A stretch of 64,000 nucleotides of DNA from Fibrobacter succinogenes (GCA_902800815.1 CADCGB010000012.1:1-64000), one strand, 5' to 3'. Positions 29,843 through 52,681 are shown, numbered from the stretch's first letter. The notes: generated by a model not told the origin, from the sequence alone. Numbers and translations: made by a program.

Positions 29843-29847
29843 CGTTC

Positions 29848-30045
29848 CTCAACACAGCGCTTCCCGCAGTTCTTCTGGCTCGGGGATCAACCTACTCCCG
29901 GCTCCTTCACATGCGACTCATCGCACATTGGTTCATGCCGGTTTCGTCCTCCCTTACAGCGGCGCGACCGCCCCCGGCTTTCACGGGGTTCTCTCCTTGC
30001 AAACTGCCCGGCTGGGCCGCCTGCAAGAGCTTTTCAGGGCACAGG
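29848..30045 (-). promoter_or_regulatory. Cobalamin riboswitch
   Basis: On the minus strand the leader contains the typical B12-aptamer order. First GAGAACCCCGTGAAAGCCGG and GGGCGGTCGCGCCGCTGTAA, the conserved CCGxxAAA and GCCxCTGTAA core (about 29951-29998). Then GGAGGACGAAACCGGCATG, and a GTGCGATGAGTCGCAC-like stem. Last the B12 box GAGCCAGAAGAACTGCGG (29864-29881). The box lies 22 bases before the start codon, close to the SD GAGG, so control at translation initiation by sequestering the RBS is likely. No clear terminator hairpin is seen in the leader. A GCTATATTTC element (30057-30066) just upstream may be the promoter. Confidence 0.88.
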
Positions 30046-30111
30046 AAACTTTTCAAGAAATATAGCATCTTTTTCTACGCATATCATGCGTTAATAATTT
30101 ATATTATCACT

Positions 30112-36264: not shown

Positions 36265-36578
36265 AGTATCTCTCTCTTTTTTAATTGTGAACGCCCCCGT
36301 GAGGGGACATGGTTTAATGCAAATATATCTTTTTTTTCCGAATAGGCAACACCCCGAAACAAAAAAAGAAGCTTTTTCCGAAAAAAAGTTCGTTTCATCA
36401 CACTTTTGCTCATAAACCGGCGATGAATGGTAAAAAAAAGGGACGTTACACCCCGAACCGGCATCCGAAGTCCGACTTTAGTGCGACCTGCATCACTGTA
36501 AAAAGAAATTTACTAGAAATGTCATATATATAGGGTATCTTTTATAGTGAAAAACTGAATTCTCGGGAGTGTATGTAT
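36265..36578. promoter_or_regulatory. Divergent intergenic region between the CBM-like gene and GH8
   Basis: About 300 bases with no gene. On the minus side are AGAGAGAG just ahead of the ATG at 36264 and TATATTTGC (36319-36327). On the plus side are TTTAC (36510-36514), ATATATATA and TATCTTTTA (36536-36544), then the SD GGAG (36567-36570). Long A tracts and a CCGAAAAAAAG/AAAAAAAAG repetition lie between. A bent-DNA or regulatory role is possible, but no operator is defined. Confidence 0.5.
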
Positions 36579-38687
36579 ATGAAGTTACGTATTTTAGCAG
36601 TGTTTGCGATAGCCGCACTATTCTCTGGCACGGCCCTTGCCGCGCCAGCCTTCCCGTTCCCGCAGAACCAAGTCTACCCCCAGGGAAACACGGTGCAGTT
36701 CGCCACCCCGAGCGCAATCAAGGCCCACTTCGACACCTGGAAAAACTGCTGGTACAAGGACATGGGCGATGGCACCGCACGCATCATCAGCCCTAACGAC
36801 AGTACCGAGATGTCCGTATCCGAAGGCATTGCCTACGGCATGCTCATCATGGTCTACATGTCGGGCTCCCAGGGCGATTACCAGAGCGAATTCAACAAGC
36901 TCTGGGCCTACTGGAAAAAATACGCCATATCTGGCGGAGCCAGTGGCATGAAATGGCACATAGACAACAACAAGGGTAAAGCCGATGACGGCAGCGCCAG
37001 TGACGCAGAATTCGATGCAGCCGTAGCGCTCGTGATGGCATCGAAGCAGTGGGGCGACGCCAGCTACCTTTCCGACGCCAAGAGTCTCATCAACTGGATC
37101 AAGAGCAACGACATGACTAGCGATGGGAGCGTGAAGCCCGGCAGCAACTGGAACAACTACTTCAACCCGAGCTATGCGGCAGTAGGCGCTTTCCACCTGT
37201 TCAAGGAAGTCACGAACGACACCTTCTGGGACACCGCCATCAAGAAGACCCTCAGCGACGTGAGCCAGTGCCAGGATTCCAAGACCGGCCTTGTGCCCGA
37301 CTGGTGCGACTGGAACAGCCACAAGGCGGTCCAGGGCAACGCAGCCATCACCAATGGCATCGGGTTCTTCGATGACGCCTGCCGCACTCCATGGCGTATG
37401 GCCTGGGCCTACTACTGGTACGGTGACACCGGCGCCAAGTCCGTAAACGACAAGATTATCCCCTGGCTCAAGCAGGCTTCGTACGAACACGCCACCTACA
37501 TCGGTGCCGGCTACAAACTCGACGGCACCATGCCCACAGGCCGCGGGTTCGTATCCTCCTCGTTCTCAGGCGGGCTCGGCCTCGCAATGGCATCTGCAAC
37601 CGCCCCCGGCTACTTCATGGAAACCTTGTACGAAACTCTCATCAACACTGAAGGCCGCATAAAGCCCGATGCCTCGAAAGGCGAAAAGTACTACCCTGCC
37701 ACCCTCAATATTCTCTACCTGCTGCTCATGACGGGCAACATGCCGAACTTCTACAACATGACCGGCTACACCCCGTTTACGCCCAACCCGTTGCTCGCTC
37801 GCCAGGTGAAGGCCCCGAATGGCACGCTCCTGCCCACAAACCCCAACACGTTCGCCGCCGGCTTCTGGAAATGGGGCGCCTATAGCGACAAGTTCGGAGT
37901 CACCAAGATGCAGCCCGATTCCGGCAGTTCCGCAATCTACCAGACGGCAAACGGCAACCGCGTGGCGGCATCCATGTATATTGCACCCGAGCCCACCTAT
38001 GATGCGACCGCCGACCTCAAGTACCCCTTCGCGGGCGTCGCGCTCTCGTTCAAGGAAGACGAAAGCAACCTCGACTTCTCCGAGGCGGCGTTCATCAAGC
38101 TGCGTATCCGCACCCAGGGCGTCATCCGTCTTGCAATACTCAACCAGGCAACCCTCGACGCCGACGAGGAAGGCGGCGAGCCGGGATACCTGTTCCACCC
38201 CTCCGAGGATTTCCAGGACGTGACTATCAGCCTCGCAACGGACAATTACGGCGACTTCACAGAACTCACCACCCCCGACTGGGCATACCCCTGGGGTGCC
38301 GCCGACGTACTCAAGGCGGTCCGCGGCATCAAACTCGAGGCAAAGATGAGCAAGGGCGGCTACGGTGAATTTGAACTCACAAGCCTAAGCGTGCTCAATG
38401 CGGCAGGGGAATCCATCGCAGCCCTCCAGGGGCTAACCTCCATACCCCAGAAAAAGGTACTTAGTGTGGCGGGGCTCCACCAGGCGGGTTCCATGGTCGA
38501 ATTTGCCGGATTCAGGAGCGGTTCACAAATTTATGTTTACGATATGCAGGGTAAAAACGTAAACAAACAGAAACTTGCAGTAACGAACGGTAGCATGTCC
38601 ATTGATCAGCTGGTCCCCAGCGCCGGTATCTATACCGTGAAGGTCAAGGATGGCTCCAATATTCAAACGATTAGGATACGAAAGTAA
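36579..38687 (+). CDS. Secreted glycoside hydrolase family 8 endoglucanase with CBM-like domain and sorting-like tail
   Basis: 702 residues from ATG 36579; an ATG at 36573 is also possible, but GGAG lies 8 bases before 36579, matching other genes here. The signal peptide MKLRILAVFAIAALFSGTALA is followed by the GH8 domain (about 22-375). It contains MSVSEGIAYGMLIMVYM (general-acid Glu), SASDAEFDAAVALVMA (Asp region) and CRTPWRMAWAYYW. Residues of about 410-620 form a CBM-like domain (GVALSFKEDESNLDFSEAAF, GGYGEFELTSLSV). The last 70 or so form the C-terminal tail (IYVYDMQGKNVNKQK ... GIYTVKVKDGSNIQTIRIRK). Substrate inferred to be cellulose or mixed-linkage glucan. It is followed after 71 bases by a GH5, probably with its own promoter. 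Confidence 0.9.
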   Translation: MKLRILAVFAIAALFSGTALAAPAFPFPQNQVYPQGNTVQFATPSAIKAHFDTWKNCWYKDMGDGTARIISPNDSTEMSVSEGIAYGMLIMVYMSGSQGDYQSEFNKLWAYWKKYAISGGASGMKWHIDNNKGKADDGSASDAEFDAAVALVMASKQWGDASYLSDAKSLINWIKSNDMTSDGSVKPGSNWNNYFNPSYAAVGAFHLFKEVTNDTFWDTAIKKTLSDVSQCQDSKTGLVPDWCDWNSHKAVQGNAAITNGIGFFDDACRTPWRMAWAYYWYGDTGAKSVNDKIIPWLKQASYEHATYIGAGYKLDGTMPTGRGFVSSSFSGGLGLAMASATAPGYFMETLYETLINTEGRIKPDASKGEKYYPATLNILYLLLMTGNMPNFYNMTGYTPFTPNPLLARQVKAPNGTLLPTNPNTFAAGFWKWGAYSDKFGVTKMQPDSGSSAIYQTANGNRVAASMYIAPEPTYDATADLKYPFAGVALSFKEDESNLDFSEAAFIKLRIRTQGVIRLAILNQATLDADEEGGEPGYLFHPSEDFQDVTISLATDNYGDFTELTTPDWAYPWGAADVLKAVRGIKLEAKMSKGGYGEFELTSLSVLNAAGESIAALQGLTSIPQKKVLSVAGLHQAGSMVEFAGFRSGSQIYVYDMQGKNVNKQKLAVTNGSMSIDQLVPSAGIYTVKVKDGSNIQTIRIRK

Positions 38688-38758: not shown

Positions 38759-40957
38759 ATGACGATATTCAGCAAATCGATAAAGGCGATTGCAGCAGGC
38801 GCGCTCCTCCTCGGGGCGGTAGAAGCCAATGCAGCCGCTTCAACGGCCAAGCCCCTCCGCGTGGGCCCGGTACAAGTTCACGGCGTCCTCACGACAAACG
38901 GAGGCAAGATTGTGGGCCAGAAGAGCGGCAAGGAAGCCATGCTCCGCGGCATGAGCATGTTCTGGTCTGATGCTACCGGCATCCAGTACTACAACAAGGA
39001 AGTCATCAAGTGGGCCGTTGACAACCTGAAGATTGACGTGTTCCGCTATGCCATGGGTGTCCGGTACTACGATAGCGACGGAGGTACGTCCAACGCGCTC
39101 GACGCAAAGTATTCCTACTACGACAACCCAGACACGCAGACGGGTAAGATTGACCAGATGGTCGAAGCCGCCATCGAGAACGACATCTACATCATTATCG
39201 ACTGGCACAGTCACCGCGCCTACGAAAGCAACGAAAAGGCCAAGGCGAAGTCTTTCTTCAGTGAAATGGCCGCAAAGTACAAGGGCGTCCCGAACATCAT
39301 CTGGGAAGTGTTCAACGAACCTGCCGGCAGTTTCAATGATTGGGGTTCCATCAAGAGCTACGCCAACGACGTTATCGGCGGCATCCGTGCCAATTCCGAC
39401 AACCTCGCCCTTGTGGGTACGCCTAACTGGTCCCAGATGGGCCAGTGCGGAGGCGTTGACAAGAAGAATGTGGGATACGTGTTCCACTTCTATGCAGGTA
39501 CGCACTCCGTCGGCCAATACGGTGGAGCCGTGACCTCCTGTAAGAATGGCGGCAACGCCGTGTTCATTACCGAATGGGGTACCACTACCGCTGACGGCAA
39601 GAGCGATGCCAACACGAGCGCATCGTCCGAATGGACGAACTTCATGGAGCAGAACAAGATCAGTAACTGCAACTGGAGCCTGCGCCAGAAGGTGACCAAA
39701 ATCGGAAACGCTTCCGATGAAGGTTCCGCCATGTTTGCCGGCGACCAAGCGCTCACCAAGCAGTCCGAACTCGCCAGCGCAAGCTACACCAATTCCGGAA
39801 ACTTTGTAAAGAGCTACCTCACCAAGAACGCCACGGACTGGGCAGGCCAATTCACGGCGACACTTAAGAGCGGCAGTTGCTCCTTCTCTGCAACCACCGT
39901 CAAGGAAACCGCAGGCAGCGTTGCAAGTTCGCTGAAGTCGGGCTGCACCTACACCTCAAGCGACGAATCTGTCGTCACGTCCACAGGCGCCGTCAAGAAC
40001 GCAGGTTTTGTCCTCATGACCGGCAACGACGGCTCTCAGTCCATTATAATCGTTACGGCTGAGCCCAAGCAGACCGTCAGCGGGTTTGTGGACTTCAATT
40101 GCTTTACTAGCGGATCTTGCACCAAGAGCAAGACCATCAAGGACCTGGATAACGATGGCAAAAAAGAAGTGATTGCCAGCACCACCGGAACAACAGACCA
40201 GGGTTCCACACTTACGTTCACTTCCCTCAATACCGACATCGTAAAAGTCAAGAAGGCAACATGCTCCAACACTGCCGGATGCTTCGGCCAGGTAAAGGGC
40301 AGCACCGTACAGATGTTTGAATTCTCGGGGACCCTCGGCACAGCAAAGATTGTGGCGACAGCTCCGGCTGCAGCTGGCGGGTACATCGCCTTCAACGACA
40401 CCATTACCATCAATTACACCAAGACAGGCGACAAACTGGGAGACAATTTCAAGTCGATGACCGTCGATAAGGGTGCTGTCGTTGCAGGCGTGTTCGCGAC
40501 CGAGACATACTACGGCAAGTCTCCGATTACCTACACCTTTGATGGGCAGCCGACCTCCATCTATGTGGTCAACAGCGAAGGCTTCCTTATTTCCGCTGAC
40601 CAGGATGCCACGGTGACCATCAGGGCCACTGCTCCTGAAACCGCGGATAGAGCCGCAGTCGACTCGACTATCATCATCACCGTCGGTAACGGCGGCAACA
40701 CCCCGATTATGGTGCAGAAGCCGCGTGCAGCCTTCAAGGCCAAGTTCAGCAACGACGGAATGCTGCTGAGCACTCCGAAAGCGGGCCTAGCCACGGTCGA
40801 AGTCTTCACGGCCCTCGGCAACGTGGAATACACCCAGAAGGTGATGCTCGGTGCCGGCACCAACGTGGTCCCGATGAGCGGCATCAGCGCGGGCAAGTAC
40901 ATCGTCCGTGTAAGGCAGGGAAGCAATATCCAGAACTTCCTCCTCGAAAAGAAATAA
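38759..40957 (+). CDS. Secreted glycoside hydrolase family 5 endoglucanase (GH5_2-like)
   Basis: 732 residues. SD AAAAGGAG lies 6 bases before the ATG, with TATCTTTTA at 38732-38740 upstream. The signal peptide ends VEANAAA. The GH5 domain (about 35-350) has MLRGMSMFWSD, IYIIIDWHSHRA, NIIWEVFNEPAG (general-acid Glu), GYVFHFYAGTHS and NAVFITEWGTTTADG (nucleophile Glu), all typical of subfamily 2 endo-beta-1,4-glucanases. The rest is Ig-like and Thr/Ser-rich domains to about 660. A C-terminal tail follows (VEVFTALGNVEYTQKVMLG, GKYIVRVRQGSNIQNFLLEKK) similar to those of the other secreted enzymes here. It is terminated by 40985-41011. Confidence 0.93.
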   Translation: MTIFSKSIKAIAAGALLLGAVEANAAASTAKPLRVGPVQVHGVLTTNGGKIVGQKSGKEAMLRGMSMFWSDATGIQYYNKEVIKWAVDNLKIDVFRYAMGVRYYDSDGGTSNALDAKYSYYDNPDTQTGKIDQMVEAAIENDIYIIIDWHSHRAYESNEKAKAKSFFSEMAAKYKGVPNIIWEVFNEPAGSFNDWGSIKSYANDVIGGIRANSDNLALVGTPNWSQMGQCGGVDKKNVGYVFHFYAGTHSVGQYGGAVTSCKNGGNAVFITEWGTTTADGKSDANTSASSEWTNFMEQNKISNCNWSLRQKVTKIGNASDEGSAMFAGDQALTKQSELASASYTNSGNFVKSYLTKNATDWAGQFTATLKSGSCSFSATTVKETAGSVASSLKSGCTYTSSDESVVTSTGAVKNAGFVLMTGNDGSQSIIIVTAEPKQTVSGFVDFNCFTSGSCTKSKTIKDLDNDGKKEVIASTTGTTDQGSTLTFTSLNTDIVKVKKATCSNTAGCFGQVKGSTVQMFEFSGTLGTAKIVATAPAAAGGYIAFNDTITINYTKTGDKLGDNFKSMTVDKGAVVAGVFATETYYGKSPITYTFDGQPTSIYVVNSEGFLISADQDATVTIRATAPETADRAAVDSTIIITVGNGGNTPIMVQKPRAAFKAKFSNDGMLLSTPKAGLATVEVFTALGNVEYTQKVMLGAGTNVVPMSGISAGKYIVRVRQGSNIQNFLLEKK

Positions 40958-41011: not shown

Positions 41012-41476
41012 GTATATATACTTGCGCGGCCCCGCGATTCGCAGAAGGCCGAAGCGACTAACTGATGCGAAGACTACGCAAAGCGAACACTGAAACGAAG
41101 TGTGAGCCAAAAGCGACTCGTATCAACGAGTCGCGATGGCGATAGCGAGTGAGGAACCGGAGGTTCTTTACTTGATATGACGAACGAGCGGTCGTGTTAG
41201 AGTGAGTGTGAACGTGCGAAGCGACTCTCGTAGCAAACAAACATCTCCCCTGCTGTTTAATGTATACCCGCAATTCGCCGAAGGCCGAAGTGACTAACAG
41301 CCGCGAGGCCTTCGCAGTACAAGCGTCTAGGACGTTCCCGCAACATGCCTGTCCTTGCCGGAGCCAACTCTTGTTTTTTTGCGGAGAGATGGCGCTTCGC
41401 AAAGTGAACACTGAAACGAAGTGTGAGTGTGAACGTGCGAAGCGCCTCTCGTAGCAAACAATATTACATAAACATA
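41012..41476. repeat. Gene-free stretch with imperfect direct repeats and a perfect palindrome
   Basis: No convincing gene is seen. Three words occur twice: CG(C/A)xATTCGCxGAAGGCCGAAG at 41033 and 41269; CGCAAAGxGAACACTGAAACG at 41077 and 41398; and GTGAGTGTGAACGTGCGAAG with CTCTCGTAGCAAACAA at 41202-41240 and 41423-41461. The last pair differs by one base in 39. The order is A, B, C then A, B, C with different spacing. A perfect 9-bp inverted repeat GCGACTCGT/ACGAGTCGC lies at 41113-41121 and 41126-41134. It resembles a family of dispersed intergenic elements rather than a mobile element; no transposase is seen. Confidence 0.75.
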
Positions 41477-41503
41477 CAAAAGAGGCTCCCGAAGGAGCCT
41501 CTT
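41477..41503 (-). terminator. Terminator of the six-gene barrel operon
   Basis: A perfect 10-bp stem AAGAGGCTCC/GGAGCCTCTT (41480-41489, 41494-41503), loop CGAA read on the plus strand. On the minus strand it continues TTTGTATG. It lies 21 bases beyond the last gene's stop. Confidence 0.8.
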
Positions 41504-41524
41504 AAAACATTCTAGTTGCAAGAC

Positions 41525-42583
41525 TTACTTCTTCTTCGCGGGCTTGTAGTTCACTTCCGGGCGGAGTTCCAGGCCAATCGTCACCAGGATGGAGACGATC
41601 GGTTCGTGGTGGTCCTGAGAGAGGTCGTAAACAGCCACGCCGGAGTAGCCATTGTTCTTCACGTTCTCGGCAACCGCCTTCACGGAAGGAATACCCATGA
41701 ACACGATGGCTTCTTCCTTGCTCACGGCAATTTCGGACTGGGAGTCAGAATCGAAACTGACCTTGTAGTCCGGAGTATCGAACTTGCCCATGAGTTCCTT
41801 GTACGGCAGGTAACCTTCGTTACCGCTACCCGTACCGTTGTGCGAAGAACCGAAACCCGTAGCACCGAGGAAGGACTTGCCGTAGAAGTACACGACCGGG
41901 TTCAGGAGATCCTTCTGGATTCCCGCACCGGCAGCCTTCTCGAGGGTTTCAGCAATGAACTTTCCGCCCTGGTTCGGAACGAGCGAGGAGTTGTCCTCGT
42001 TCATCTGGTCGGGCATGAACACGTTCACGTAGCTGAGCTTGTTCATCACTTCGGCAGTGTAGGGTTCCATCGCCACATAGGGGTACATGGTAGAAGCCAC
42101 GATAGAGCCGGAGAAGGCATCCACAAGGGCATTCACCATCTTGGCGTAGTCGCCGGCATCATCCGCAGTGAGGTTCTGCCAGTCGAGTTCCACACCCTTT
42201 GCATTGTGGCTATCCACCCATTCCTTCACGTTCGAGACGAACTTCGGGAGGAGTTCATCGGAAGAGGCAATGGCCTTCAGGTTACCTTCGGCTTCCATGC
42301 CGCCAACGGAAACCACGAGGTTCACGTTGTTCGCCGCGCACATAACCGCGAGGGAATCGTAGTTGGGCGCATCGTTCTCGTCCGGGAAGGCAAGCGAGCC
42401 GTCTTCACCCGGCATAAGGGACGAATAGTGGATGTGGGTCACCGTGTTGTAGCGGATATCCTTCGGGTAGAACTGGGAATACTGGCTCCAGTACGGGAAA
42501 TAGCCAATCACCTTGTCGGCAGCGGCCTGGGACATTGCCACGCACGCAACCGCGACTGTCGTTACAATAAGCTTGAGATTCAT
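41525..42583 (-). CDS. GH18-fold (chitinase-like) protein with catalytic Glu replaced by Gln; last gene of the six-gene operon
   Basis: 352 residues from ATG 42583 (AAGGTGGG upstream; an in-frame GTG at 42595 is less likely). The signal peptide ends MSQAAA. The TIM-barrel pattern of GH18 follows: VIGYFPYWSQY, VTHIHYSSL, NLVVSVGGMEAEG (SxGG), VYFYGKSFLGATGF. At the active-site strand the usual DGxDxDWE reads KGVELDWQ, with Gln136 in place of the acid Glu (codon CAG, 42178-42176). Chitinase activity is therefore unlikely; it may be a glycan-binding protein. The mature C-terminus is basic (YKPAKKK). It lies 15 bases after the Ser-rich lipoprotein gene. Confidence 0.8.
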   Translation of the reverse strand: MNLKLIVTTVAVACVAMSQAAADKVIGYFPYWSQYSQFYPKDIRYNTVTHIHYSSLMPGEDGSLAFPDENDAPNYDSLAVMCAANNVNLVVSVGGMEAEGNLKAIASSDELLPKFVSNVKEWVDSHNAKGVELDWQNLTADDAGDYAKMVNALVDAFSGSIVASTMYPYVAMEPYTAEVMNKLSYVNVFMPDQMNEDNSSLVPNQGGKFIAETLEKAAGAGIQKDLLNPVVYFYGKSFLGATGFGSSHNGTGSGNEGYLPYKELMGKFDTPDYKVSFDSDSQSEIAVSKEEAIVFMGIPSVKAVAENVKNNGYSGVAVYDLSQDHHEPIVSILVTIGLELRPEVNYKPAKKK

Positions 42584-42598
42584 GATATTTCCCACCTT

Positions 42599-43369
42599 TT
42601 ATTCAGCAGAACTTGAACTTTCCGCGGTTGCTTCTTCGCTGCTGGAACTATCGGCAGAAGCATCGCTAGATTCGGGATTTTCGCCGCCTTCGCTCGAGCT
42701 GGATTCTTCGCCTGCGGCTTCGGAGGATTCCGGTGCGGCAGCAGAACTGGAACTTTCTTCCGGCGCAACGAAATTGTCCGGGCATTCACTAGTTTCGGGC
42801 TCGCAATCAAGGCAGTAGACGGCGGCGTCCTTTGCGCAGTAGATGTGTTCTGCAAAGCCAACATTCGGAGATTCATCCGCCTGCGTGGTTTCGCACTTTG
42901 GCACAAGGTTCACGTCGGTATCCTTGCAGAAACGGTACGGACGACCTTCAATTGCGCCATAGACAATGTACTGCCTTTCAATAGTAGCCGTATCAAGCGT
43001 AAGCGTATCAAAGATGGCCGATTCATTCTCAACACCATAGATGTTGAATTTCTTGATATAGGCACCATGGACACTAATATCAAAATCAGCTTCGGTCATA
43101 CCGCCATGCTTAATCATGAGGGCCTTTACGACTTCCTCATTGGCAATGAAGGCGTCATCATCCTTCTCGGCACCCGAAAGGGTATTCATGTAGGTTACCT
43201 TGTCCCTAATCTGCAAAGCGCGCAGATCCGGGTTAGCCTTAATAAATTCCGCAGCCGACCAATCCTTCGGAAAGTTTTCCGAAGTCGGGTTGTCCACTTC
43301 CAAGGAGGAACACGCCACAATGGCCATTAAGGCGCCAGCGGCTAAAAGAGAAATCTTCACATTCTTCAT
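42599..43369 (-). CDS. Lipoprotein with Ser/Glu-rich C-terminal tail, function unknown
   Basis: 256 residues. SD GAGG is 6 bases before the ATG. Lipobox IVAC follows a hydrophobic signal (LLAAGALMAIVAC). Residues 22-195 form an unrecognised domain with conserved-looking acidic and aromatic segments and several Cys (KCETTQADE, YCAKDAAVYCLDCEPETSEC). The last 60 residues are a Ser/Glu/Ala repeat tail (EESSSS, AAGEESSSS, EATAESSSSAE) like the linkers of other Fibrobacter lipoproteins but C-terminal here. Fifth gene of the operon, after the 716-residue barrel. It may anchor or assemble with the barrel proteins. Confidence 0.75.
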   Translation of the reverse strand: MKNVKISLLAAGALMAIVACSSLEVDNPTSENFPKDWSAAEFIKANPDLRALQIRDKVTYMNTLSGAEKDDDAFIANEEVVKALMIKHGGMTEADFDISVHGAYIKKFNIYGVENESAIFDTLTLDTATIERQYIVYGAIEGRPYRFCKDTDVNLVPKCETTQADESPNVGFAEHIYCAKDAAVYCLDCEPETSECPDNFVAPEESSSSAAAPESSEAAGEESSSSEGGENPESSDASADSSSSEEATAESSSSAE

Positions 43370-43380
43370 TTAAGACCTCA

Positions 43381-45525
43381 CTAGAAATTGACCGTCACTT
43401 CGGCGGTGATAAGGTTCTTGTCAATAGAAAGTTCTTTCTTCTCGTATCCAGAAGCATCGGCTGTCAGGCCCTGGTAATCGACACTGTTCTTGAGCATGCC
43501 GTAACGAACCGTGACAAAGGACTGCGGAGCAATGCGAACCTTCGGACCTGCGAGGATGAGCATTTCGTCAACAGCCTGCACAAAGGACATTCCAACCGGA
43601 AGCCCTGCAATGCCGGTGCCAAACGCATCGCCTTCAAACTTCTTGTTCAGCATCTGCACACCGGCCTGCAAGGCGATCGGACCCCAGATATCGGCAGTCA
43701 AGCCACCGACAATACGCTGGGCGGAACGCTTGAGGTAGGAATCCTCGGTCGTCTTCTCGAAGGATCCCTGAAGCACCAGCTTACGGCCAAGGGACGGAAC
43801 AAGACGGCCAATATCTACGCCGAGGCCGGCACCGATTGTCGTGTACTTGTTGTCGCCTTCCTGCTCGCTATACTGGGAGAAGCGGCCATTCAGCGTAATT
43901 GCATCGTCCCAGTCTGCATCGAGAGATACCGCAAATCCCTTGCGGTTCGGCGTAGCAAGGCCAAGGGGCATCGCAAGGTTCACGGACGGATCCATCATGA
44001 AGACTGCCTGCGCAACTTCCAGCATCTTCATGGTGTTCGCATCAAAACCATTGCGGTAGAAATGCGCCAACTTGTAGTTGTTGTAGAGGCGGTAGTACAT
44101 GTTCGGCGACACAGAGTAATCACTCGAAAGCACCGTCGCCTGTCCAGAACTCATAAGGGTCGACGCAGTCAGGAGGTCGGTATTGTAGACCATAAAGTAG
44201 AGGTTCTCGAGGTTACCCGAGGCGAAGCTCGATACGAGAGCCTGGTCAACATCGCCGTACATGGCGTTCGCATTGAAGATGATTCCGTTACCGAGGTAGT
44301 TCGGGGAAGAAGCAAGTTCTGACCAGAACTTCTCGTCGTTCATGAGGTACAATCCCTTGAAGTCGAAATTGAACTTGGAGAACGACCCCTTGGCAAAGGC
44401 CTGCACGAACAGGGCAGAACCATCAGCGTCGGCTTCGTCAATCGTTACATTTTCAGAAGCATTGACATCCACCGTCGATGCCACATAAACGACCGTCTTC
44501 GTACCAGCACCATCCGGGAAGGAAGTCTCTTCCACAATCTGCGAAATAACAGAGGGGTTCTTCTGCAAGAATTCCGCATCGACATCCCACCAGGACATTG
44601 CGTATTCAGCATTAAAGCCGAACACAACCGGCAGGGACGGCAGCATCTTCTTGGAATCGAATCCGAGTTCCACAGAAAGGACTTCGTTATTTTCGTAATG
44701 AATGGTATCCTTCAGGCCAATATCGCGAGAACGGGCGGAAAGACGACGGTCAAAGGCACCAACGAAGTTCGCACCGACATTCGCACCAAAAAGTTCAAGA
44801 CCGCCACGGAGACCGTAGGCATAACGGTCAGACCAGTCAAAGTCGAAGAACACCTGGTCATTCTTCTTTGCGGCGTTACGCATACGGGCGCCAGTCATCT
44901 GCGCATAGATGTTGTCGACTGCACCCACGGCACCGCTATGGTAGGCGGCGTTCAGGCCCTGCATCAGGCGACGGGACGTAGTGTCAAGGTTGCGGGCAGC
45001 AAGGGCATCGACACGGTTCTGCGCAAAGATTTCAGGTTCCTGGAGGATTTCCACCTGCGGGGTGTTGATGGTGAGCGGAGAGTAACCGACACGCATGTAG
45101 CCCAAGTTAAAATCCACATGGTTGTTCAGGATATTGCCATCATAGCTGAACCAGTGGCCAATCACGGGGTTGTTATTCTCGTCAACGCCGCTCTGCCAGT
45201 CCTTGTGCAAGCGGAGCTGCACATCGAGACGGGTTTCGGAAGAAGGCTGTGCGAGGAACTTGAGGTTCACATCGGTATAGGCCTGGTTTTCCTGAGTCGG
45301 GGACATATCCGAGAACTGGTCCGAAGAAGCCATGGAAGTGAGCGCCCCAGCCTTGGCCGTTCCGCCCACACGAAGTCCGAGAATGGACTTGTTCAGCGAA
45401 TCCAGTTTCTGCAAGAAGGAAGACTGCTTTTCGACGGTTGCAGAGTCGCCTTCAGCGAATGCAGCCACGGCAGAGAACATCAAGGCAGATGCAAAAATGA
45501 TCGAGGTCTTTTTAGTATTCATCAT
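43381..45525 (-). CDS. Large outer-membrane beta-barrel protein (third of three paralogues)
   Basis: 714 residues from ATG 45525. GGAGGG lies 6-7 bases ahead; an in-frame ATG at 45531 sits too close to that SD. The signal peptide ends AVAAFA. A short coiled segment (EKQSSFLQKLDSLNKSI) is followed by about 660 residues of alternating beta-strands ending TAEVTVNF, an outer-membrane C-terminal Phe. It contains VGYSPLTINTPQ, residues 149-160, then LQEPEIFAQNRVD, a signature also present in the two preceding genes. No TonB plug domain is seen. A porin- or substrate-binding role is inferred. It is linked to its neighbours by 9- and 11-base gaps. Confidence 0.8.
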   Translation of the reverse strand: MMNTKKTSIIFASALMFSAVAAFAEGDSATVEKQSSFLQKLDSLNKSILGLRVGGTAKAGALTSMASSDQFSDMSPTQENQAYTDVNLKFLAQPSSETRLDVQLRLHKDWQSGVDENNNPVIGHWFSYDGNILNNHVDFNLGYMRVGYSPLTINTPQVEILQEPEIFAQNRVDALAARNLDTTSRRLMQGLNAAYHSGAVGAVDNIYAQMTGARMRNAAKKNDQVFFDFDWSDRYAYGLRGGLELFGANVGANFVGAFDRRLSARSRDIGLKDTIHYENNEVLSVELGFDSKKMLPSLPVVFGFNAEYAMSWWDVDAEFLQKNPSVISQIVEETSFPDGAGTKTVVYVASTVDVNASENVTIDEADADGSALFVQAFAKGSFSKFNFDFKGLYLMNDEKFWSELASSPNYLGNGIIFNANAMYGDVDQALVSSFASGNLENLYFMVYNTDLLTASTLMSSGQATVLSSDYSVSPNMYYRLYNNYKLAHFYRNGFDANTMKMLEVAQAVFMMDPSVNLAMPLGLATPNRKGFAVSLDADWDDAITLNGRFSQYSEQEGDNKYTTIGAGLGVDIGRLVPSLGRKLVLQGSFEKTTEDSYLKRSAQRIVGGLTADIWGPIALQAGVQMLNKKFEGDAFGTGIAGLPVGMSFVQAVDEMLILAGPKVRIAPQSFVTVRYGMLKNSVDYQGLTADASGYEKKELSIDKNLITAEVTVNF

Positions 45526-45540
45526 TTTCATTCCCTCCCA

Positions 45541-47823
45541 TTAAAATTCCACGTTAATGGAGGCTTCAACAATAGTTTGTGAGAACTTGCTGGTGAACTC
45601 CGCCGGCCACCCAGCCTCGCCCTTCACGTCACTTGCATAAAGAGGCAGGTTCACAGCATCATCAGCAGTACCCAGGCCGGTATTGTAGGTGTTCTCGACC
45701 GTAATCATGCCGAAGTTCAGCGAGAGCCAGGCATTCTTGTCGAGCGTGTAGTCGAGACCGACCATCCACTGCATCTGCGTACCCTTGACCATCGGAGCGA
45801 TGCTTGCTATACCGAGGTAGTCAGCCATGCTCTGAGCCTGCTGCAAGTCATTCAGTTCCATCGTCACCATCTGGAAACCAGCGGTAACACCCAGGCGCGG
45901 CAGGTACTGCACGTAGAGCCCAGCGTTGATGAAGTCCGTCTTGAATTCCGCGGTGCCGCTCTTTACGGTACCATCAAAGCCAAGAATCGTCGGGTCGTAA
46001 TCCATGGTGCGTTCGGAATGCCTGTACGATCCAGAAATCTCAAGCGGTTTCTTGAATCCAAGCACCTTGAAGATATCAGCCTTGAGGCCGCCACCGTATT
46101 CCATGTAGGAAATATCGGTGAATCCGAAGAGCGGAGAAACCTGCGTGTAGATACCGAACAGGCCCTGAGCCTCGAACCAGTCACCCACATTCGCAATCAA
46201 CGTGGCGCGGCCACCCTCGCGGTTAGCGGTCGCCATGCCGTTGGGGAGAATCATTTGGATTGCCGGGTCAGCCATCGCATTCAGGAGAGCAATCTGAGCC
46301 TTGGAATATACATTACCCGTCCAGGAGTTCTTGTTGTACGGGGCAATGTTGTAGCTCTCGGGCTGCTTCTTGAAGCCGATGTCGTCCGTACGCATGGTTA
46401 TAGGAACCGGGGCAAACTTCGGGGCAAAGTTGTAGAGGGCATCAAACGTCGTGTAGAGCGGAGAGTTCACGCCATACTTGACCGTGTTGCCATCGTAGTC
46501 GGAGTTCTGCACGCGCTGCGCAAAGAACTTGGGCGACTGAGCCAAGTTGTTGAACCAAAGGCTGTCATTGAAGATTACGTCGCCCACCAAGCGCACACCC
46601 CAGGATTCGGTCTTGTAACCGGCATTGAGGTTCGCATTGAGGGCCATGCCACCTTGGTCTTCCTTCTTTTCGTCAAACTTATAGTAGGCATCCGGAGCTC
46701 CATCCAGGTTCTCATCAGGCCCAGGAACAGCAGCAGGGTCATCAGCTGTCGTAACGACGATTCCCGTCGAAACAACCTGGTCCGAAGACAAGGCGATTTC
46801 TGCCGTAGCATCCAAGATGATGTTCTTGTTGTTCATCATGCCCGCAACATCGCCACCCACGCGGCCAGCGAGGATAAACGTCTTTTGCGGTTGGAGTTCA
46901 TACGGATTGTTGAAAGACAAGCCAAGTTGTTCGGGGTCAGGAATAATCGTCACCTGGCCACCATCATCAAAGTAGCGGTAGGTGTAAGAGAAGTTGTCCT
47001 CGTTGTCGAAGATGTACATCATGGTACCGCCCAAGTAGGCGTTCTTCTTCAGCGGAAGGAGTTCCAAGTTACCCGCCAAGAGGAACTTGTCGGTATTGGC
47101 AGCCTGCGTTGCACCCGGCAGAGAATCGTTCGGGAGGATGTTGCCTTCCGCACCGGAAAGGTCAAGCATCTGCGCACGGTTGATTCGTGCAAAGATACCT
47201 TCGGCACGCACCTGGCCGAACACATCGTTCAAGTCCATGCGGAACTGCAGGTTCGCACCCTGGAGGTTACGCTGGTTGCCCTCGAGCAGTTGCTGCTTTT
47301 CGGCCATGTGGCGCTTGCGGGCGAACACCTGCGGTTCGTACATGATGTCGACATCCGGGGCAAACAACGTAAGCGGGGAGTACTGCTGGCGGAAGTCACC
47401 CACGACCCAGTGGAAGTTGTTGCCAATCTGGCCTTCAACGTTGAGCCACGGGACCTCGATAATCTTTGCTGCAGAAGCGAAGTAATCCTGCATGCCCGCA
47501 TAGAGGCGCAACATCGCATTCGCACGGACGCTTTCCCAGGGGCGGAAGCCGAAGTTGAAGTCGGCATTCACGAACTCGTCCCTTTCGGTATCGGGCATCG
47601 TTGCGACGCCGTACTTATCCTGATCGGTATTAAAGTAAGATGCCTGTGCGACACCACGGATGGCGCCAGTCACTTCCAAGCCGCGATGGGCATTAGCAGA
47701 ATCAACCTTGCTCGCAATCAGTTCCTGGTTGTCGGCCACAGATGCAGCGGCGACACCGGTCGAAAGCGCAAGGGCTGTCAAAGTTCTAGTCATCATTTTC
47801 GAAGCACTTTTATTGAAAATCAT
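45541..47823 (-). CDS. Large outer-membrane beta-barrel protein (second of three paralogues)
   Basis: 760 residues. GGAGG lies upstream of ATG 47823 at an unusually long 12 bases. The start MIFNKSASKMMTRTLTAL leads into a hydrophobic signal peptide ending ASVA. Barrel-like throughout, ending VEASINVEF. QQYSPLTLFAPDVD (SPLT at 149-152) and MYEPQVFARKRH match the SPLT...EPEIFA and SPLT motifs of the neighbouring paralogues. Several loops are rich in Asn, Asp and aromatic residues, consistent with ligand contacts. No catalytic motif. Middle gene of three barrel genes in the operon. Confidence 0.8.
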   Translation of the reverse strand: MIFNKSASKMMTRTLTALALSTGVAAASVADNQELIASKVDSANAHRGLEVTGAIRGVAQASYFNTDQDKYGVATMPDTERDEFVNADFNFGFRPWESVRANAMLRLYAGMQDYFASAAKIIEVPWLNVEGQIGNNFHWVVGDFRQQYSPLTLFAPDVDIMYEPQVFARKRHMAEKQQLLEGNQRNLQGANLQFRMDLNDVFGQVRAEGIFARINRAQMLDLSGAEGNILPNDSLPGATQAANTDKFLLAGNLELLPLKKNAYLGGTMMYIFDNEDNFSYTYRYFDDGGQVTIIPDPEQLGLSFNNPYELQPQKTFILAGRVGGDVAGMMNNKNIILDATAEIALSSDQVVSTGIVVTTADDPAAVPGPDENLDGAPDAYYKFDEKKEDQGGMALNANLNAGYKTESWGVRLVGDVIFNDSLWFNNLAQSPKFFAQRVQNSDYDGNTVKYGVNSPLYTTFDALYNFAPKFAPVPITMRTDDIGFKKQPESYNIAPYNKNSWTGNVYSKAQIALLNAMADPAIQMILPNGMATANREGGRATLIANVGDWFEAQGLFGIYTQVSPLFGFTDISYMEYGGGLKADIFKVLGFKKPLEISGSYRHSERTMDYDPTILGFDGTVKSGTAEFKTDFINAGLYVQYLPRLGVTAGFQMVTMELNDLQQAQSMADYLGIASIAPMVKGTQMQWMVGLDYTLDKNAWLSLNFGMITVENTYNTGLGTADDAVNLPLYASDVKGEAGWPAEFTSKFSQTIVEASINVEF

Positions 47824-47841
47824 ACTCTTATCGCGCCTCCA

Positions 47842-50391
47842 TTAGAACCATACTTTAGTTTCAGCGTAGATGTAATGACCGGTCCAGTCATTATCAGGCA
47901 CTGTTTCGTCGGAGTGGGTCGCCCACTTGTAACGGACATGGATGCCCGCACGGTCGGCAAAGTTCCAGTCGAAGCCCAGGCCAAGCGCCGTTTCGAGGTA
48001 GTTAATCGGGGCCTTGCGGTAGAAGGTCGTGGACACATCGTTGTAATGCGTCGGAGCCTTCGCTGTCGGCTTAGCGATCACGTTATCTACATAGTCGATA
48101 AGGTAACCGTATTCAGAACGGAACGTTTCAAGGCCGAGGATACCCACAAGGTGGAACGTCGGGGTAAGCGCGATTGCAGGTTCAAGCTGTCCGTAGAAAC
48201 TCCACAGGAGCATGTCGCTCTGGGATTCGCTATAAGCAAGCGGAGCAATCGTCTTGGACACACCGGAAATAGAGGCGTAGCCGCTCATCACGATGTTCTT
48301 GTCGGTACCGAACCAGTGGCCGATATCGTAGCCACCTGCGAGAGAGAGGTAGCTGGACCACTTGGTGTGGCTCGGAACCACGCTATCCTGGATCTGCTCG
48401 GCATTTTCATAGGCAACGAAGGTTTCCCACATTTCCCAGGTACCGCCACGGAGGCCGCCCTGCTGACGGTTCATCTTGAGGCCCGTACCCGGAGTAAGCA
48501 CACCGGCACGTTCCACGTATCCATTGTAGCGGGCGTTACCCGAGTCAGCCCAGAAGATCGGCTTGTGCTTGGTCCAGGAGTTCGTGGATTCCCACAGGTT
48601 GCGGCCATTCAAGCGGTAGTTGAAGAGAAGCACGTCGTCACCGTCTTCAACCTGGCTGTGCAAGCCATACTGGATATCGAGATGACCGCGGTTGAATTCC
48701 GGTTCGATCTTCAGGTTGATACCCGCCATATTGGGGGCATAGCGCATAGAACCGGAGTTGAGTGCGAATTCATCCTTGCGCCATGCGAGGAAACGGGAGG
48801 GGTTAGACATGGAGAACGGAGAGTAGAAGTCCTTCGGGAGGAAGATGGCTTCGAGGGTCATCGGCCAGCCTTCGAGGTACTTGCTCTGAGCCTTCACGTA
48901 CACACCGACCTGCGGAGTGCTCCATTCGGCTTCGTAGGAGCTCTTCTCGTAACCGGAACCGTGCTTGGCGCCGTCAGCCTTGTAGTACTTGAGCGAGTCG
49001 GTCATGCTCAAGGCCACATCGGCCATCAAGTAGAACTTCGGAGTGATGTTGCCCTTGAAATCAATAGAGGCAACGTGCGTGTTCATAATAGTGGGGTCTG
49101 CACTCAAGGCGTTGTACTGGCTGTAGAATTCGGATTCGTAGACAAGCGCTTCATCAAACACGACGCCCATGTAGTTAAGGCCAATCGTGAGGTTGTCCGC
49201 AATCTTGTTCTTGGCTAGGCGTCCGTGATAAACGGCACCGCGCAGGTCATAGTCACCGGCCATTTCGAGTTCACCCGGCTGGCCACCGTACATACGCAGA
49301 CCGTCGCGGGTACCCACGTCCATATCGGACGGCTGGGCCACCATGGCCTGGGCAGTCATGTCGAAGGGCAACTGGTAGGCGCTCACGAACACGCCACCGA
49401 AAGAGCGGTTGGTCCAGAAGGCGCGGCCGCCTTCCTTCACCGGCTTGAACACCTTTTCCTTGTAGTAGGTGCTCACAGTCTTTTCGTCTTCGAAGGTTTC
49501 GTACACCCAGGCAAAGCGGGGCATGGTTTCGCGTTCCCACATGGTAAGGGGAGAAGAGTTCGCCCAGATAACGCCGCCCGCCGTAACGTAGGCGCCAAAG
49601 ACGCCCGCACGGATGTCGACACCGAAGTTCATTTCTTCGTCGACCGTGGATGAGTAGTAGTCGGTAGAGTGGTCGAACAGCACGCGTTCGTTAGAAGTAG
49701 GCACGTCCGTCGGGTGAGTGCCCAGATTGTTGACGAACAGGCCCGAGAGGTCGAACGGGAAAGTGAAGTTCGTCCAAAGGGTCATGTAGGAGTTCGGCAT
49801 GGCCACGACGTTCGCCTTGAAGATAGCGTCGACCGCAAGGCGCGCCTTATCGGAAGCCAAGTACTCAGAGGCGTCGGGATAACTGAAGTTCTTGAGGCGG
49901 AATGCCATGAAACCCGAAACCGCGAGGGGTGCGTCATCCTTGCCCATCATGGTGGATTCCAGGCTTTCGGCAATTCCATCCAGGTTGTTCTCGGCCGTAT
50001 TCAGTTGTTCGTCCGCAGAGAGCGTCGCCGGAGCGGCAACCACGGGAGCAGGACCGGTCACAGGGGCAGCGGAAGCGAATTCCTTCTTGGGGGCTTCCTC
50101 GGGTGCAGGTTCGGCAGCGGCAGCATCTTCTGCAGCAGGTTCAGCAGCGGGCTCCTCAGCAGCAGGTTCGGCAGCAGCCTCTTCAACCGGGGCGCTTTCC
50201 TCGGCAGGTGCAGCCTCTTCGGCAGGAGCGGGTTCTTCGGCAGTCGCTGCATCAAGTTCAGCGTAGGCTGCCTCGGCGGATTCTTCCACAGCCTCTGTTT
50301 CAGGTGCGCTTGCGTAGGGGGAGTCATCCTCCTGGGCAAAGGCAAGAGAAGAGCAAAGCAAAGTCGTAAAGAGTAACGGTAATTTGCGCAT
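47842..50391 (-). CDS. Large outer-membrane beta-barrel protein with Glu/Ala/Pro-rich linker (first of three paralogues)
   Basis: 849 residues. The signal peptide ends CSSLAFAQ. Residues 30-110 are a low-complexity EAP-rich linker (many AAEEPA and EPAPEEA units), probably a periplasmic spacer. Residues 115-849 are barrel-like, ending IYAETKVWF. ANSSPLTMWERE (SPLT at 280-283) aligns with the SPLT motif of the next two genes, followed by an aromatic stretch (RFAWVYETF). The longest of the three. The gap to the CBM-like first gene is 9 bases. The linker is absent from the other two paralogues. Confidence 0.8.
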   Translation of the reverse strand: MRKLPLLFTTLLCSSLAFAQEDDSPYASAPETEAVEESAEAAYAELDAATAEEPAPAEEAAPAEESAPVEEAAAEPAAEEPAAEPAAEDAAAAEPAPEEAPKKEFASAAPVTGPAPVVAAPATLSADEQLNTAENNLDGIAESLESTMMGKDDAPLAVSGFMAFRLKNFSYPDASEYLASDKARLAVDAIFKANVVAMPNSYMTLWTNFTFPFDLSGLFVNNLGTHPTDVPTSNERVLFDHSTDYYSSTVDEEMNFGVDIRAGVFGAYVTAGGVIWANSSPLTMWERETMPRFAWVYETFEDEKTVSTYYKEKVFKPVKEGGRAFWTNRSFGGVFVSAYQLPFDMTAQAMVAQPSDMDVGTRDGLRMYGGQPGELEMAGDYDLRGAVYHGRLAKNKIADNLTIGLNYMGVVFDEALVYESEFYSQYNALSADPTIMNTHVASIDFKGNITPKFYLMADVALSMTDSLKYYKADGAKHGSGYEKSSYEAEWSTPQVGVYVKAQSKYLEGWPMTLEAIFLPKDFYSPFSMSNPSRFLAWRKDEFALNSGSMRYAPNMAGINLKIEPEFNRGHLDIQYGLHSQVEDGDDVLLFNYRLNGRNLWESTNSWTKHKPIFWADSGNARYNGYVERAGVLTPGTGLKMNRQQGGLRGGTWEMWETFVAYENAEQIQDSVVPSHTKWSSYLSLAGGYDIGHWFGTDKNIVMSGYASISGVSKTIAPLAYSESQSDMLLWSFYGQLEPAIALTPTFHLVGILGLETFRSEYGYLIDYVDNVIAKPTAKAPTHYNDVSTTFYRKAPINYLETALGLGFDWNFADRAGIHVRYKWATHSDETVPDNDWTGHYIYAETKVWF

Positions 50392-50400
50392 GGGGACCTC

Positions 50401-51138
50401 TTAAATTGCGTTGCGGAACGGGTAGTTGGACGGACCTTCGTAGGCCTTGCCCTGCTTCTTGATTACGATATCGTCAATCCAGACCTTGAAGGCCTCGTTC
50501 TCGTCCTTACGGACTTCAAGACGGAAACCCTTGAAGTTCGACCAAGCGAACGGGAGCATGACTTCACGCGTATTCTTCGCATCCCAGTACACACCGGTCA
50601 TGCCGAACAGCTTGAGCGGGATGCTGAAATGCTTCCATTCCGTGGTAATTTCACCAAGGCTCTTGGAGCGGAGCTTAACCTGCAGGGATTCGCCGTTGCT
50701 CTTCACGCCATCGTCAACGAGCACGAACAGGGCGTTTTCACCACCCTTGTCACCCTTGATCCAGAACTCGAGGACGCCTTCTTCCAGGTACGGGGTCAGG
50801 TCCACAGAACCGGCAATACAGATAGCCACGCCGGAATAGTCGCTGGCAATAAGCTCGATTTCCATGGAAAGTGCACCTTCCATGGCATACTTGTCGGTGA
50901 GGACCGGCTCGGGGTTCTCACGCGGGTACTGGTAGGTGTATCCACCGCCACGGGGAATAGCCTCGCGCATAACGACGCTTACCACGTCCTTGTCCGGACG
51001 GAAGGGTTTGGCCTCGCGCGTAACGAAGCGGGAATTGTCCCTATCCCTATAATCGCTGAAAGAAGCAAAGGAGAAAGACGCAAGAAGGAGTGAGCCCACG
51101 GCGCACTTCCAGATGATGGTCTGCAGATGTGATTTCAT
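50401..51138 (-). CDS. Exported CBM11/CIA30-like carbohydrate-binding protein, first gene of the barrel operon
   Basis: 245 residues from ATG 51138; an in-frame ATG at 51171 adds an implausible extension. GGAGA lies 11 bases ahead. The signal peptide is WKCAVGSLLLASFSFASF. The mature protein has the beta-sandwich pattern of CBM11/CIA30: AMEGALSMEIELIASDYSGVAI, LEEGVLEFWIKGDKGGENALFVLVDD, WKHFSIPLKLF, FRLEVRKDENEAFKVWIDDIVIK. No catalytic residue. Likely role: glucan binding or scaffold. It is divergent from the GH5 gene at 51386. The 247-base gap between them holds the ATGTACCCAAA repeats. Confidence 0.75.
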   Translation of the reverse strand: MKSHLQTIIWKCAVGSLLLASFSFASFSDYRDRDNSRFVTREAKPFRPDKDVVSVVMREAIPRGGGYTYQYPRENPEPVLTDKYAMEGALSMEIELIASDYSGVAICIAGSVDLTPYLEEGVLEFWIKGDKGGENALFVLVDDGVKSNGESLQVKLRSKSLGEITTEWKHFSIPLKLFGMTGVYWDAKNTREVMLPFAWSNFKGFRLEVRKDENEAFKVWIDDIVIKKQGKAYEGPSNYPFRNAI

Positions 51139-51210
51139 AAGATACAAGATCTCCAAATTCAATGGCAACAATATAACTTGTTTTTAGGGGCTTGTTTTAC
51201 GAAAAAATCC

Positions 51211-51256
51211 AAAATGGGTTTACAGATGTACCCAAATGGGGCAAAATGTACCCAAA
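51211..51256. promoter_or_regulatory. Candidate operator: ATGTACCCAAA repeated at 20-bp spacing
   Basis: ATGTACCCAAA occurs at 51226-51236 and 51246-51256, exactly two helical turns apart. The first copy forms part of an inverted-repeat-like sequence TGGG-TT-TACA-GA-TGTA-CCCA (51215-51234). Related TTTACCCAAG lies near 51292. The site sits in the divergent region between the six-gene operon and the GH5 gene, about 90-120 bases from the operon start. It looks like a binding site for a homodimeric regulator; which one is unknown. Confidence 0.45.
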
Positions 51257-51385
51257 ATCCCGATTTTTCGTCTTTTTGAGGAAAATCACACGTTTACCCA
51301 AGTAACCGAATTATTAAAAAAAAAGCAATTTTTAGCCTTAAATATGTTTAAATTGTCTATGTAAACAGCAACCGGACGGTTTTCT

Positions 51386-52681
51386 ATGAAGTTTTTCAAA
51401 TACCTAGCCCCGATTACCGCAGCATTTTTCCTGGCCAGCTGCTCCTCCGATGGCGGCGGCCTGACCAAGGCCGATGATGAACCAACATCCAGCGGATCGA
51501 CAACCCACGCCAAGGTGGACTACTCCAAGGGCCGTGCCATGAACGCACGCCTCGGAAAGGGCATCAACTTGGGCAATGCATGGGATGCCAATTCCTACTG
51601 GGGCTGCGGAACCCTGGGAAAAGGCGACGACTTTGTCTACACCATCAATGGCGTAGAGAAAAAAATTACGCTCGGCAACTCCGACCAGCTTTTCTTCGGG
51701 AATCTCCCCGCAGAACGCTACAACTTTACCTGTAACGACGGGCTTGATAACGGTTGGAACAACCCCATCAAGGACGAATACTTTACACTAATCAAACAGA
51801 CCGGATTCAATTCCGTCCGTATCCCCGTCCGCTGGCAGCACAATTCCGACCCCGTGACCCACGCCGTCAACCCGGACCGCCTGGCAGGCGTATTAGAAGA
51901 TGTCAAGTTGGCCATCAATGCGGGCCTCGCCGTGGTCGTCAGTTTCCACTGGTATCACGAGCTAATGTTCGCGGCCAACCACTCCAGGACTAACCCGGAC
52001 CTCTTCGAGTTTGAGAAAGAACATTTCGCAAGCATATGGACACAGGTGGCAACGGCCTTCGAAGCCGCGAACATCCCGGACGACATGCTTGTTTACGACA
52101 TCTTGAACGAACCGACAACGAACACTGCTGAACGCCTGAACGACGTCATGATGGTGGGCTACAACGCCATACGCGCGGTCTCCCCCGGAAAAACCATCAT
52201 GTTCGAATCCAAGCAGTCCGCCAAGTTCGCAGAAATCACCTCGCTGGAGTTGCCGGCAGACGGAAACATCATCTATAGCGGACACTACTACGAGCCCTAC
52301 GAATTCACCCACCAGGGTCACAGCTATGCCTGCCAGGGAGATGCCGCCTACGCCATGACTGCAGCCACAGACTTCAAGAACTACATCGCCACAATCAAGA
52401 AACTGTATCCGGATGTAACTGCCGGCCAGTACGTTCCGCTCAATATGGGTGAGTTCGGTGTTTCCGGCGGCGAATCCGCCAACACGCATTCCTGCGCGGA
52501 AGGCACTAATCCTCCGACCAATGCCGCAAAGGCCAAATGGGCAAAAGCGGTCATAGCAGTCGCTGAACAGTATGGCATATCCTGGCATTACTGGGGACTT
52601 GCCGGCGTCGGCGGTTTTGAAGCCTACGACAAGAAAACCGGTACCTGGCTAGACGGCTTCCCCGCAGCATTCGGGCTCTAG
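51386..52681 (+). CDS. Lipoprotein glycoside hydrolase family 5 cellulase
   Basis: 431 residues. The lipobox LASC follows MKFFKYLAPITAAFF, and a short Ser/Gly/Asp-rich linker follows. The GH5 domain begins near residue 55 with GKGINLGNAWD. It contains NSVRIPVRWQHN, VVSFHWYHELM, VYDILNEPTTN (general-acid Glu) and VPLNMGEFGVSG (nucleophile Glu). The GHYYEPYEFTHQG and WHYWGLAGVGG segments are typical of GH5 endoglucanases. It is surface- or periplasm-anchored by lipid, unlike the secreted GH5 at 38759. It ends 3 bases from the convergent lpxA. Confidence 0.92.
   Translation: MKFFKYLAPITAAFFLASCSSDGGGLTKADDEPTSSGSTTHAKVDYSKGRAMNARLGKGINLGNAWDANSYWGCGTLGKGDDFVYTINGVEKKITLGNSDQLFFGNLPAERYNFTCNDGLDNGWNNPIKDEYFTLIKQTGFNSVRIPVRWQHNSDPVTHAVNPDRLAGVLEDVKLAINAGLAVVVSFHWYHELMFAANHSRTNPDLFEFEKEHFASIWTQVATAFEAANIPDDMLVYDILNEPTTNTAERLNDVMMVGYNAIRAVSPGKTIMFESKQSAKFAEITSLELPADGNIIYSGHYYEPYEFTHQGHSYACQGDAAYAMTAATDFKNYIATIKKLYPDVTAGQYVPLNMGEFGVSGGESANTHSCAEGTNPPTNAAKAKWAKAVIAVAEQYGISWHYWGLAGVGGFEAYDKKTGTWLDGFPAAFGL

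Follow-up and report, generated by a model that had tools for sequence, protein, structure and literature searches.

A conserved barrel operon of Fibrobacter succinogenes and its probable role in capturing and importing beta-glucan oligosaccharides at the outer membrane

Among described systems, the nearest to the operon analysed here is the chu_1276-chu_1280 cluster of Cytophaga hutchinsonii, termed an 'atypical PUL' (polysaccharide utilization locus) and called a new kind of PUL (PMC12016534). Its products are two outer-membrane proteins encoded side by side, one of them predicted to form a barrel, together with a putative glycan binder of the cell surface, a cellulose-binding protein and an endoglucanase; SusD is missing. 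The cellulose-binding protein has tandem domains resembling carbohydrate-binding modules (CBM), of which the C-terminal one resembles CBM11 (PMC12016534). C. hutchinsonii requires the outer-membrane genes to use cellulose, and a chu_1276 mutant grows poorly on low glucose (PMC12016534). The mechanism of cellodextrin uptake in Fibrobacter was stated to be unknown (PMC6851124, PMC4668043). Here we analysed a 64,000-nucleotide stretch of F. succinogenes DNA (GCA_902800815.1, CADCGB010000012.1:1-64000; hereafter the window), in which six genes within 41477-51385 encode a CBM30 protein, three large barrels (B1, B2 and B3), a lipoprotein and a GH18-fold protein. In our view this operon probably serves to capture beta-glucan oligosaccharides at the outer membrane and to import them; in Fibrobacter these would be cellodextrins.

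In strain S85 the counterparts are exactly six genes, Fisuc_1525 (CBM30) to Fisuc_1530 (GH18), or FSU_2007-FSU_2012, with the GH5 gene FSU_2005 close by (PMC3079729); they were matched by locus-tag order, not by sequence comparison. FSU_2012 (Fisuc_1530) was listed as cellulose-binding protein CBP-9 (PMC6851124), and it is among the highest and most stably expressed CAZy genes (PMC6204037). The CBM30 counterpart was detected in the cell envelope on both glucose and cellulose (PMC4619616). The middle genes Fisuc_1526-1529 were not found named in a literature search that did not reach the papers on S85 cellulose-binding proteins and vesicles.

Gene order of the operon and its conservation

Analysis of open reading frames (ORFs) placed all six genes on the minus strand, in one direction throughout, with intergenic gaps of 9, 18, 9 (15 with the 45525 start), 11 and 15 bp in 5'-3' operon order (Table 1). 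Directly 3' of the GH18 gene lies a strong hairpin with a perfect GC-rich stem of 10 bp, a TTCG loop and a T-run behind it. A previous reading of this DNA (the original prediction) had described six co-directional genes 9-18 bases apart, ended by a single terminator and flanked by GH5 and GH8 genes; the ORFs, strand, gaps and hairpin all agree with it, and Pfam matches identified the flanking genes as proposed. A promoter scan around the operon gave promoter-like matches that were no better than those in shuffled sequence, so the promoters are unproven.

The contigs of public genomes were scanned for homologous loci. Among the 77 loci recovered, 65 had the complete order CBM30-B1-B2-B3-lipoprotein-GH18 on one strand, the genes being separated by a median of 9-15 bp, which argues that the arrangement is more than chance; most of the remaining 12 loci are interrupted by contig borders. 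The results support one conserved operon. An apparent loss of B2 at one locus (L089) was rejected as an artefact of ORF calling (B2 is present there at 58% identity). B1 was found in 49 of 61 relatives, the B2 profile matched 146 of 168 Fibrobacterota genomes (30 of 41 genera), and B3 is confined to Fibrobacterales and to three GH20-linked loci (L040, L041 and L177). The original prediction had suggested that the system could be specific to Fibrobacter, a claim we abandon given the spread of B2 over the phylum and a few much-diverged cases in other phyla. Even in these diverged copies the link with CBM and glucanase genes persists.

A barrel family without a recognisable plug

B1, B2 and B3 each terminate in Phe, the C-terminal residue typical of outer-membrane barrels. 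None of them matched a Pfam or NCBIfam family, none had a TonB plug or receptor match in Pfam at E<=1, and a sequence-profile search of the PDB with B1 and B2 gave nothing significant. In hhalign comparisons B2 and B3 were aligned with an E value of 4e-99. A first comparison with few sequences gave no link between B1 and B2 (2%) and a weak one between B1 and B3 (59%); with deep profiles (110, 110 and 75 sequences) B1 was joined to the others at 95% probability (E 3e-8 to B2 and 7e-9 to B3). Profile alignment thus showed the three barrels to share a common ancestry as one family, with B2 and B3 close and B1 distant. Their earlier description as three paralogues is strong for B2 and B3 and extends to B1 only through deep profiles. 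The family is unclassified.

The AlphaFold2 (AF2) model of B2 has 22 strands (mean pLDDT 77, pTM 0.79), with loops of 2-10 residues after even strands and 7-115 residues after odd strands, an alternation that matches the usual outer-membrane barrel pattern. Outside the strands, the best-conserved regions of B2 are the inserts 147-184 (SPLT...EPxIFAxxR) and 420-534 (LPNGLATANR), both on the long-loop side of the model and presumably extracellular. The AF2 model of B1 (pLDDT 70) has about 22-24 strands. Neither model shows a plug domain, in line with the original prediction, in which no TonB plug was seen in the operon.

Foldseek searches with the B1 and B2 models returned ushers, AlgE, chitoporin, MtrB, TonB receptors and SusC, all with TM below 0.5. 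We rejected a class assignment from these matches because the similarity is generic. The appearance of AlgE (an alginate exporter) and of pilus ushers among them, together with tails on the neighbouring cellulases that resemble those of the type IX secretion system (T9SS), could be taken to mean that the barrels export surface cellulases or hold them in place, as an AlgE-like exporter or a type IX partner. We regard such a role in secretion or assembly as very unlikely, since the structural likeness is so general, T9SS has components of its own, and deep relatives tie the barrel pair to import and catabolism genes, not to secretion genes.

It could also be argued that B1 or B2 is a very divergent TonB-dependent receptor, with inserts that replace the plug and couple to TonB/ExbBD. 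The 22 strands modelled for B2 would equal the number in TonB receptors (B1 is modelled with about 22-24), TonB receptors and SusC occur among the weak Foldseek matches of B1, and ExbBD/TonB rise on cellulose in S85. But Pfam detected no plug domain, only a short and poorly modelled N-terminal stretch precedes B2 strand 1, and the conserved B2 insert 420-534 would by parity lie in an extracellular loop. We therefore consider TonB-energised import by these barrels quite improbable. SusD (PF07980) was not found in the present genome (G000), and at 1e-10 it was detected in only 8 Fibrobacterota genomes in a 392-genome search (control positive in Bacteroides). Lateral transfer or contamination perhaps accounts for the SusD genes of those 8 genomes. 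The present genome has two TonB plugs, one of them in the window, so the organism does possess TonB transport.

Genomic context and surface proteins

The core B1-B2-CBM30 is kept outside Fibrobacterales, in most of Fibrobacterota. In most f10, f13 and f7 genera (our labels) it adjoins SBP5/DppBCDF or SBP5 genes, and for the majority of the f10 and f13 genera the position is 3' of, or divergent from, SBP5-DppB-DppC-DppD-DppF. Six genera (g29, g30, g31, g33, g38 and g39) have a GH94 cellobiose phosphorylase gene after CBM30, and in g4 one is nearby; GH94 is scarce, with 1-3 genes per genome in most genomes sampled. In f3g5 genomes B1-B2 comes after SBP1-MalF-MalG with a GH1 gene near, and the CBM30 partner is usually a lipoprotein with CBM30 and CBM11. 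The one tested, from L166, carries a domain similar to GH51 and shares 50% identity with a protein of the present genome; we take this CBM30-CBM11-GH51 protein as an orthologue of Cel51A, whose mean expression in S85 is matched by no other CAZy gene (PMC6204037). A second, paralogous copy in f3g5 genomes, CBM30-B1-B2-B3-GH20 with canonical GH18 genes (the GH20-linked loci above), is apparently a chitin version of the same barrel module. In the present genome the contig continues, immediately beyond the window, with a GH9 cellulase gene and a complete SBP5-DppB-DppC-DppD-DppF importer (L207, C12:62000-71513); this Dpp importer is an orthologue of the one that accompanies B1-B2 in deep relatives. 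The second SBP5 homologue of the present genome (C5) has no cellulase cluster around it.

B2 matches were obtained in 2 of about 224 genomes from other phyla, one of them in the arrangement GH9-B1-B2-CBM9-CBM11-like (G231, L182). When a further 395 genomes were sampled from the phylum to which G229 belongs, which is rich in SusD and was presumed to be Bacteroidota, B2 matches numbered six. Four of these six loci hold a B1-B2 pair with gaps of 0-13 bp; L220 was left out of the pair evidence because its B1 ORF was not called. Profile comparison (E 3e-22 for B1 and 2e-35 for B2) supports both orthologies. One locus reads LacI regulator-B1-B2 with GH3 and an MFS_2 transporter (L219), and another SSF (sodium) symporter-B1-B2-LP-CBM30 lipoprotein (385 aa)-GH3-GH16 (L222). 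Tandem paralogues were seen at L183 among the distant pairs (L182, L183 and L218-L222). A match in G606 (1.6e-4) was short and weak and was discarded. The association of one barrel pair with four types of inner-membrane importer and with glucan or chitin genes, where these could be named, is our main argument for import.

The CBM30 protein matched Pfam CBM30 at 5.7e-18 (65.9 bits vs. a cut-off of 27) and CBM11 only at 0.01. The binder of a CBM family that had been proposed is thus retained, with CBM30 in place of the CBM11/CIA30-like assignment. Phmmer also matched it to the CBM30 structures 1wmx and 2c24. It is a single-domain protein, predicted to be secreted and without a lipobox, and it shows 40% identity to the CBM30 part of the CBM30-CBM11-GH51 protein that relatives carry beside B1-B2. 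The lipoprotein gave no significant Pfam, NCBIfam or SusD match; its lipobox is found in 54 of 70 orthologues, and its Ser/Glu-rich tail is variable and not conserved.

The gene 6 protein matched Pfam GH18 (2.2e-29) over the whole profile (1-317 of 317), with the catalytic motif DxxDxDxE reading KGVELDWQ. The predicted change of Glu to Gln is accompanied by two others, of the first Asp to Lys and of the second Asp to Glu. None of 69 orthologues has the catalytic Glu (54 have Q), and all 69 carry Glu at the position of the second Asp. Since the catalytic Glu is missing throughout, the gene 6 protein is a pseudo-enzyme. Outside Fibrobacterales, the GH18 genes that relatives have next to the barrel operon are canonical. 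A decrease of envelope endo-acetylglucosaminidase activity was previously linked to the FSU_2012 protein (PMC6851124). Given the lost catalytic residue, another source of this activity appears more likely (the S85 genome paper lists a second GH18, FSU_3030); the published link may be misassigned, and the 'chitinase' label of FSU_2012 is called into question.

Adhesion could be the only function of the operon, with the barrels as anchors that display CBM30 and the pseudo-GH18 for attachment to cellulose, without transport. CBM30 and CBP-9 bind glucan or cellulose by family or report, and the S85 counterparts are envelope proteins on glucose as on cellulose. On the other hand, relatives keep B1-B2 without B3, the lipoprotein or GH18, beside importers and phosphorylases that are needless for adhesion, and it would be costly to build anchors from two or three barrels of this size that keep conserved inserts. 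Adhesion alone is in our opinion unlikely.

From the genomic context we infer an import role, in which CBM30 and the pseudo-GH18, with the lipoprotein at the cell surface, would bind glucan chains, and neighbouring cellulases (GH5, GH8 and Cel51A) would cut them. The plug-less B1 and B2, plus B3, would conduct the products to the periplasm as a substrate-specific, porin-like assembly; the Dpp-type SBP_5 ABC importer could then carry cellodextrins inward for phosphorolysis by GH94. An outer-membrane location, a pore, this substrate and direction, a physical complex and independence from TonB are all implied by this scheme. More tentatively, B1 and B2 may represent a new and widespread class of TonB-free glycan importer, a plug-less hetero-assembly of two ~22-strand barrels with CBM30/CBM11 surface binders, equivalent to SusCD in Fibrobacterota and scattered other phyla.

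Several observations weigh against the import module. In Fibrobacter the importer and GH94 are not adjacent to the operon. The AF2 models are of moderate quality (pLDDT 77 and 70), and no known barrel is close (TM below 0.5). The S85 GH18 counterpart was slightly down on cellulose (-1.3) and commoner in the medium than in the outer membrane (PMC6851124, PMC4668043). ExbB/ExbD/TonB are up on cellulose in S85, which together with the two plugs in the genome allows for a TonB route. The literature search turned up no experiment on transport by the barrels, on their binding or on their localisation. The SusCD-like role suggested at the outset fits the genomic context, with the qualification that a plug-bearing TonB receptor lies elsewhere in the window, about 12 kb from the operon.

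The divergent GH5 lipoprotein gene that adjoins gene 1 is conserved in the genus. On the downstream side, near-identical segments are repeated at 41100-41480, between two convergent terminators (cgcttcgcacgttcacactcac occurs twice), and a further hairpin is found at 41134-41113 in the same intergenic stretch.

Table 1. Operon genes and other features of the window
Feature	Position	Strand	Remarks
Gene 1, CBM30 protein, 245 aa	50401-51138	-	ATG start; TTG would extend the frame to 51171
Gene 2, B1 barrel, 849 aa	47842-50391	-	Signal peptide, Ala/Glu/Pro-rich linker, about 22-24 strands (model), no plug
Gene 3, B2 barrel, 760 aa	45541-47823	-	22 strands (AF2 model)
Gene 4, B3 barrel, 716 aa	43381-45531	-	B2 paralogue; second in-frame ATG at 45525
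Gene 5, lipoprotein, 256 aa	42599-43369	-	Cys after IVA; Ser/Glu-rich tail
Gene 6, GH18-fold pseudo-enzyme, 352 aa	41525-42583	-	ATG start; GTG would extend to 42595
Intrinsic terminator	41503-41480	-	AAGAGGCTCC-TTCG-GGAGCCTCTT + T-run
GH5 cellulase lipoprotein	51386-52681	+	Divergent; S85 counterpart probably FSU_2005
GH5 cellulase, T9SS-like tail	38759-40957	+	Convergent, downstream of operon
GH8 glucanase, T9SS-like tail	36573-38687	+	Flanks operon
Small T9SS-tailed protein	35356-36264	-	Adjoins first GH8; extends glucanase island
Second GH8 gene	33782-35176	-	Near first GH8; extends glucanase island
Fic/DOC protein with DUF4172	29785-31116	+	Overlaps start of TonB receptor gene, opposite strand
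TonB-dependent receptor with plug domain	27803-29842	-	

Comparison with known systems

Fibrobacter is a main cellulose digester in the gut of herbivores, and the operon, probably the long-missing entry route for cellulose fragments, offers named and deletable genes for the outer-membrane step. Its context links the barrels to an importer, to Cel51A and to a cellodextrin phosphorylase. Cel51A of F. succinogenes (FSU_0382; CBM30-CBM30-CBM11-GH51) lies elsewhere in Fibrobacter, with the stand-alone CBM30 protein in its place; in deep relatives its orthologue is grouped with B1-B2 as if in one operon. The gene 6 protein resembles the chitinase-like GH18 lectins, which likewise have the GH18 fold with the catalytic Glu lost. 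It differs from them in being bacterial, in belonging to an envelope operon and in having a counterpart reported to bind cellulose (CBP-9).

The carbohydrate porins LamB, ScrY and chitoporin have 16-18 strands and about 420-480 aa, and LamB-like porins are trimers. They are similar to the proposed assembly as channels without a plug, and chitoporin was among the Foldseek matches of B2. However, B2 is modelled with 22 strands, occurs in tandem with B1 and has no Pfam porin match. With SusC/SusD the Fibrobacter system shares surface glycan binders, a large outer-membrane barrel, linked glycanases and, by context, import. It differs in having neither plug nor SusD and in having two or three barrels of another family, with no recognisable sequence relation.

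The chu_1276-1280 cluster has the same layout as the distant L222 locus, and CHU_1279, at about 385 aa judged from construct lengths, compares with the 385-aa CBM30 lipoprotein there. Fibrobacter adds B3 and the pseudo-GH18. Likened by layout only, the Cytophaga cluster is probably related to the B1-B2 system, and the unexplained cellulose systems of Fibrobacter and Cytophaga may join as one family.

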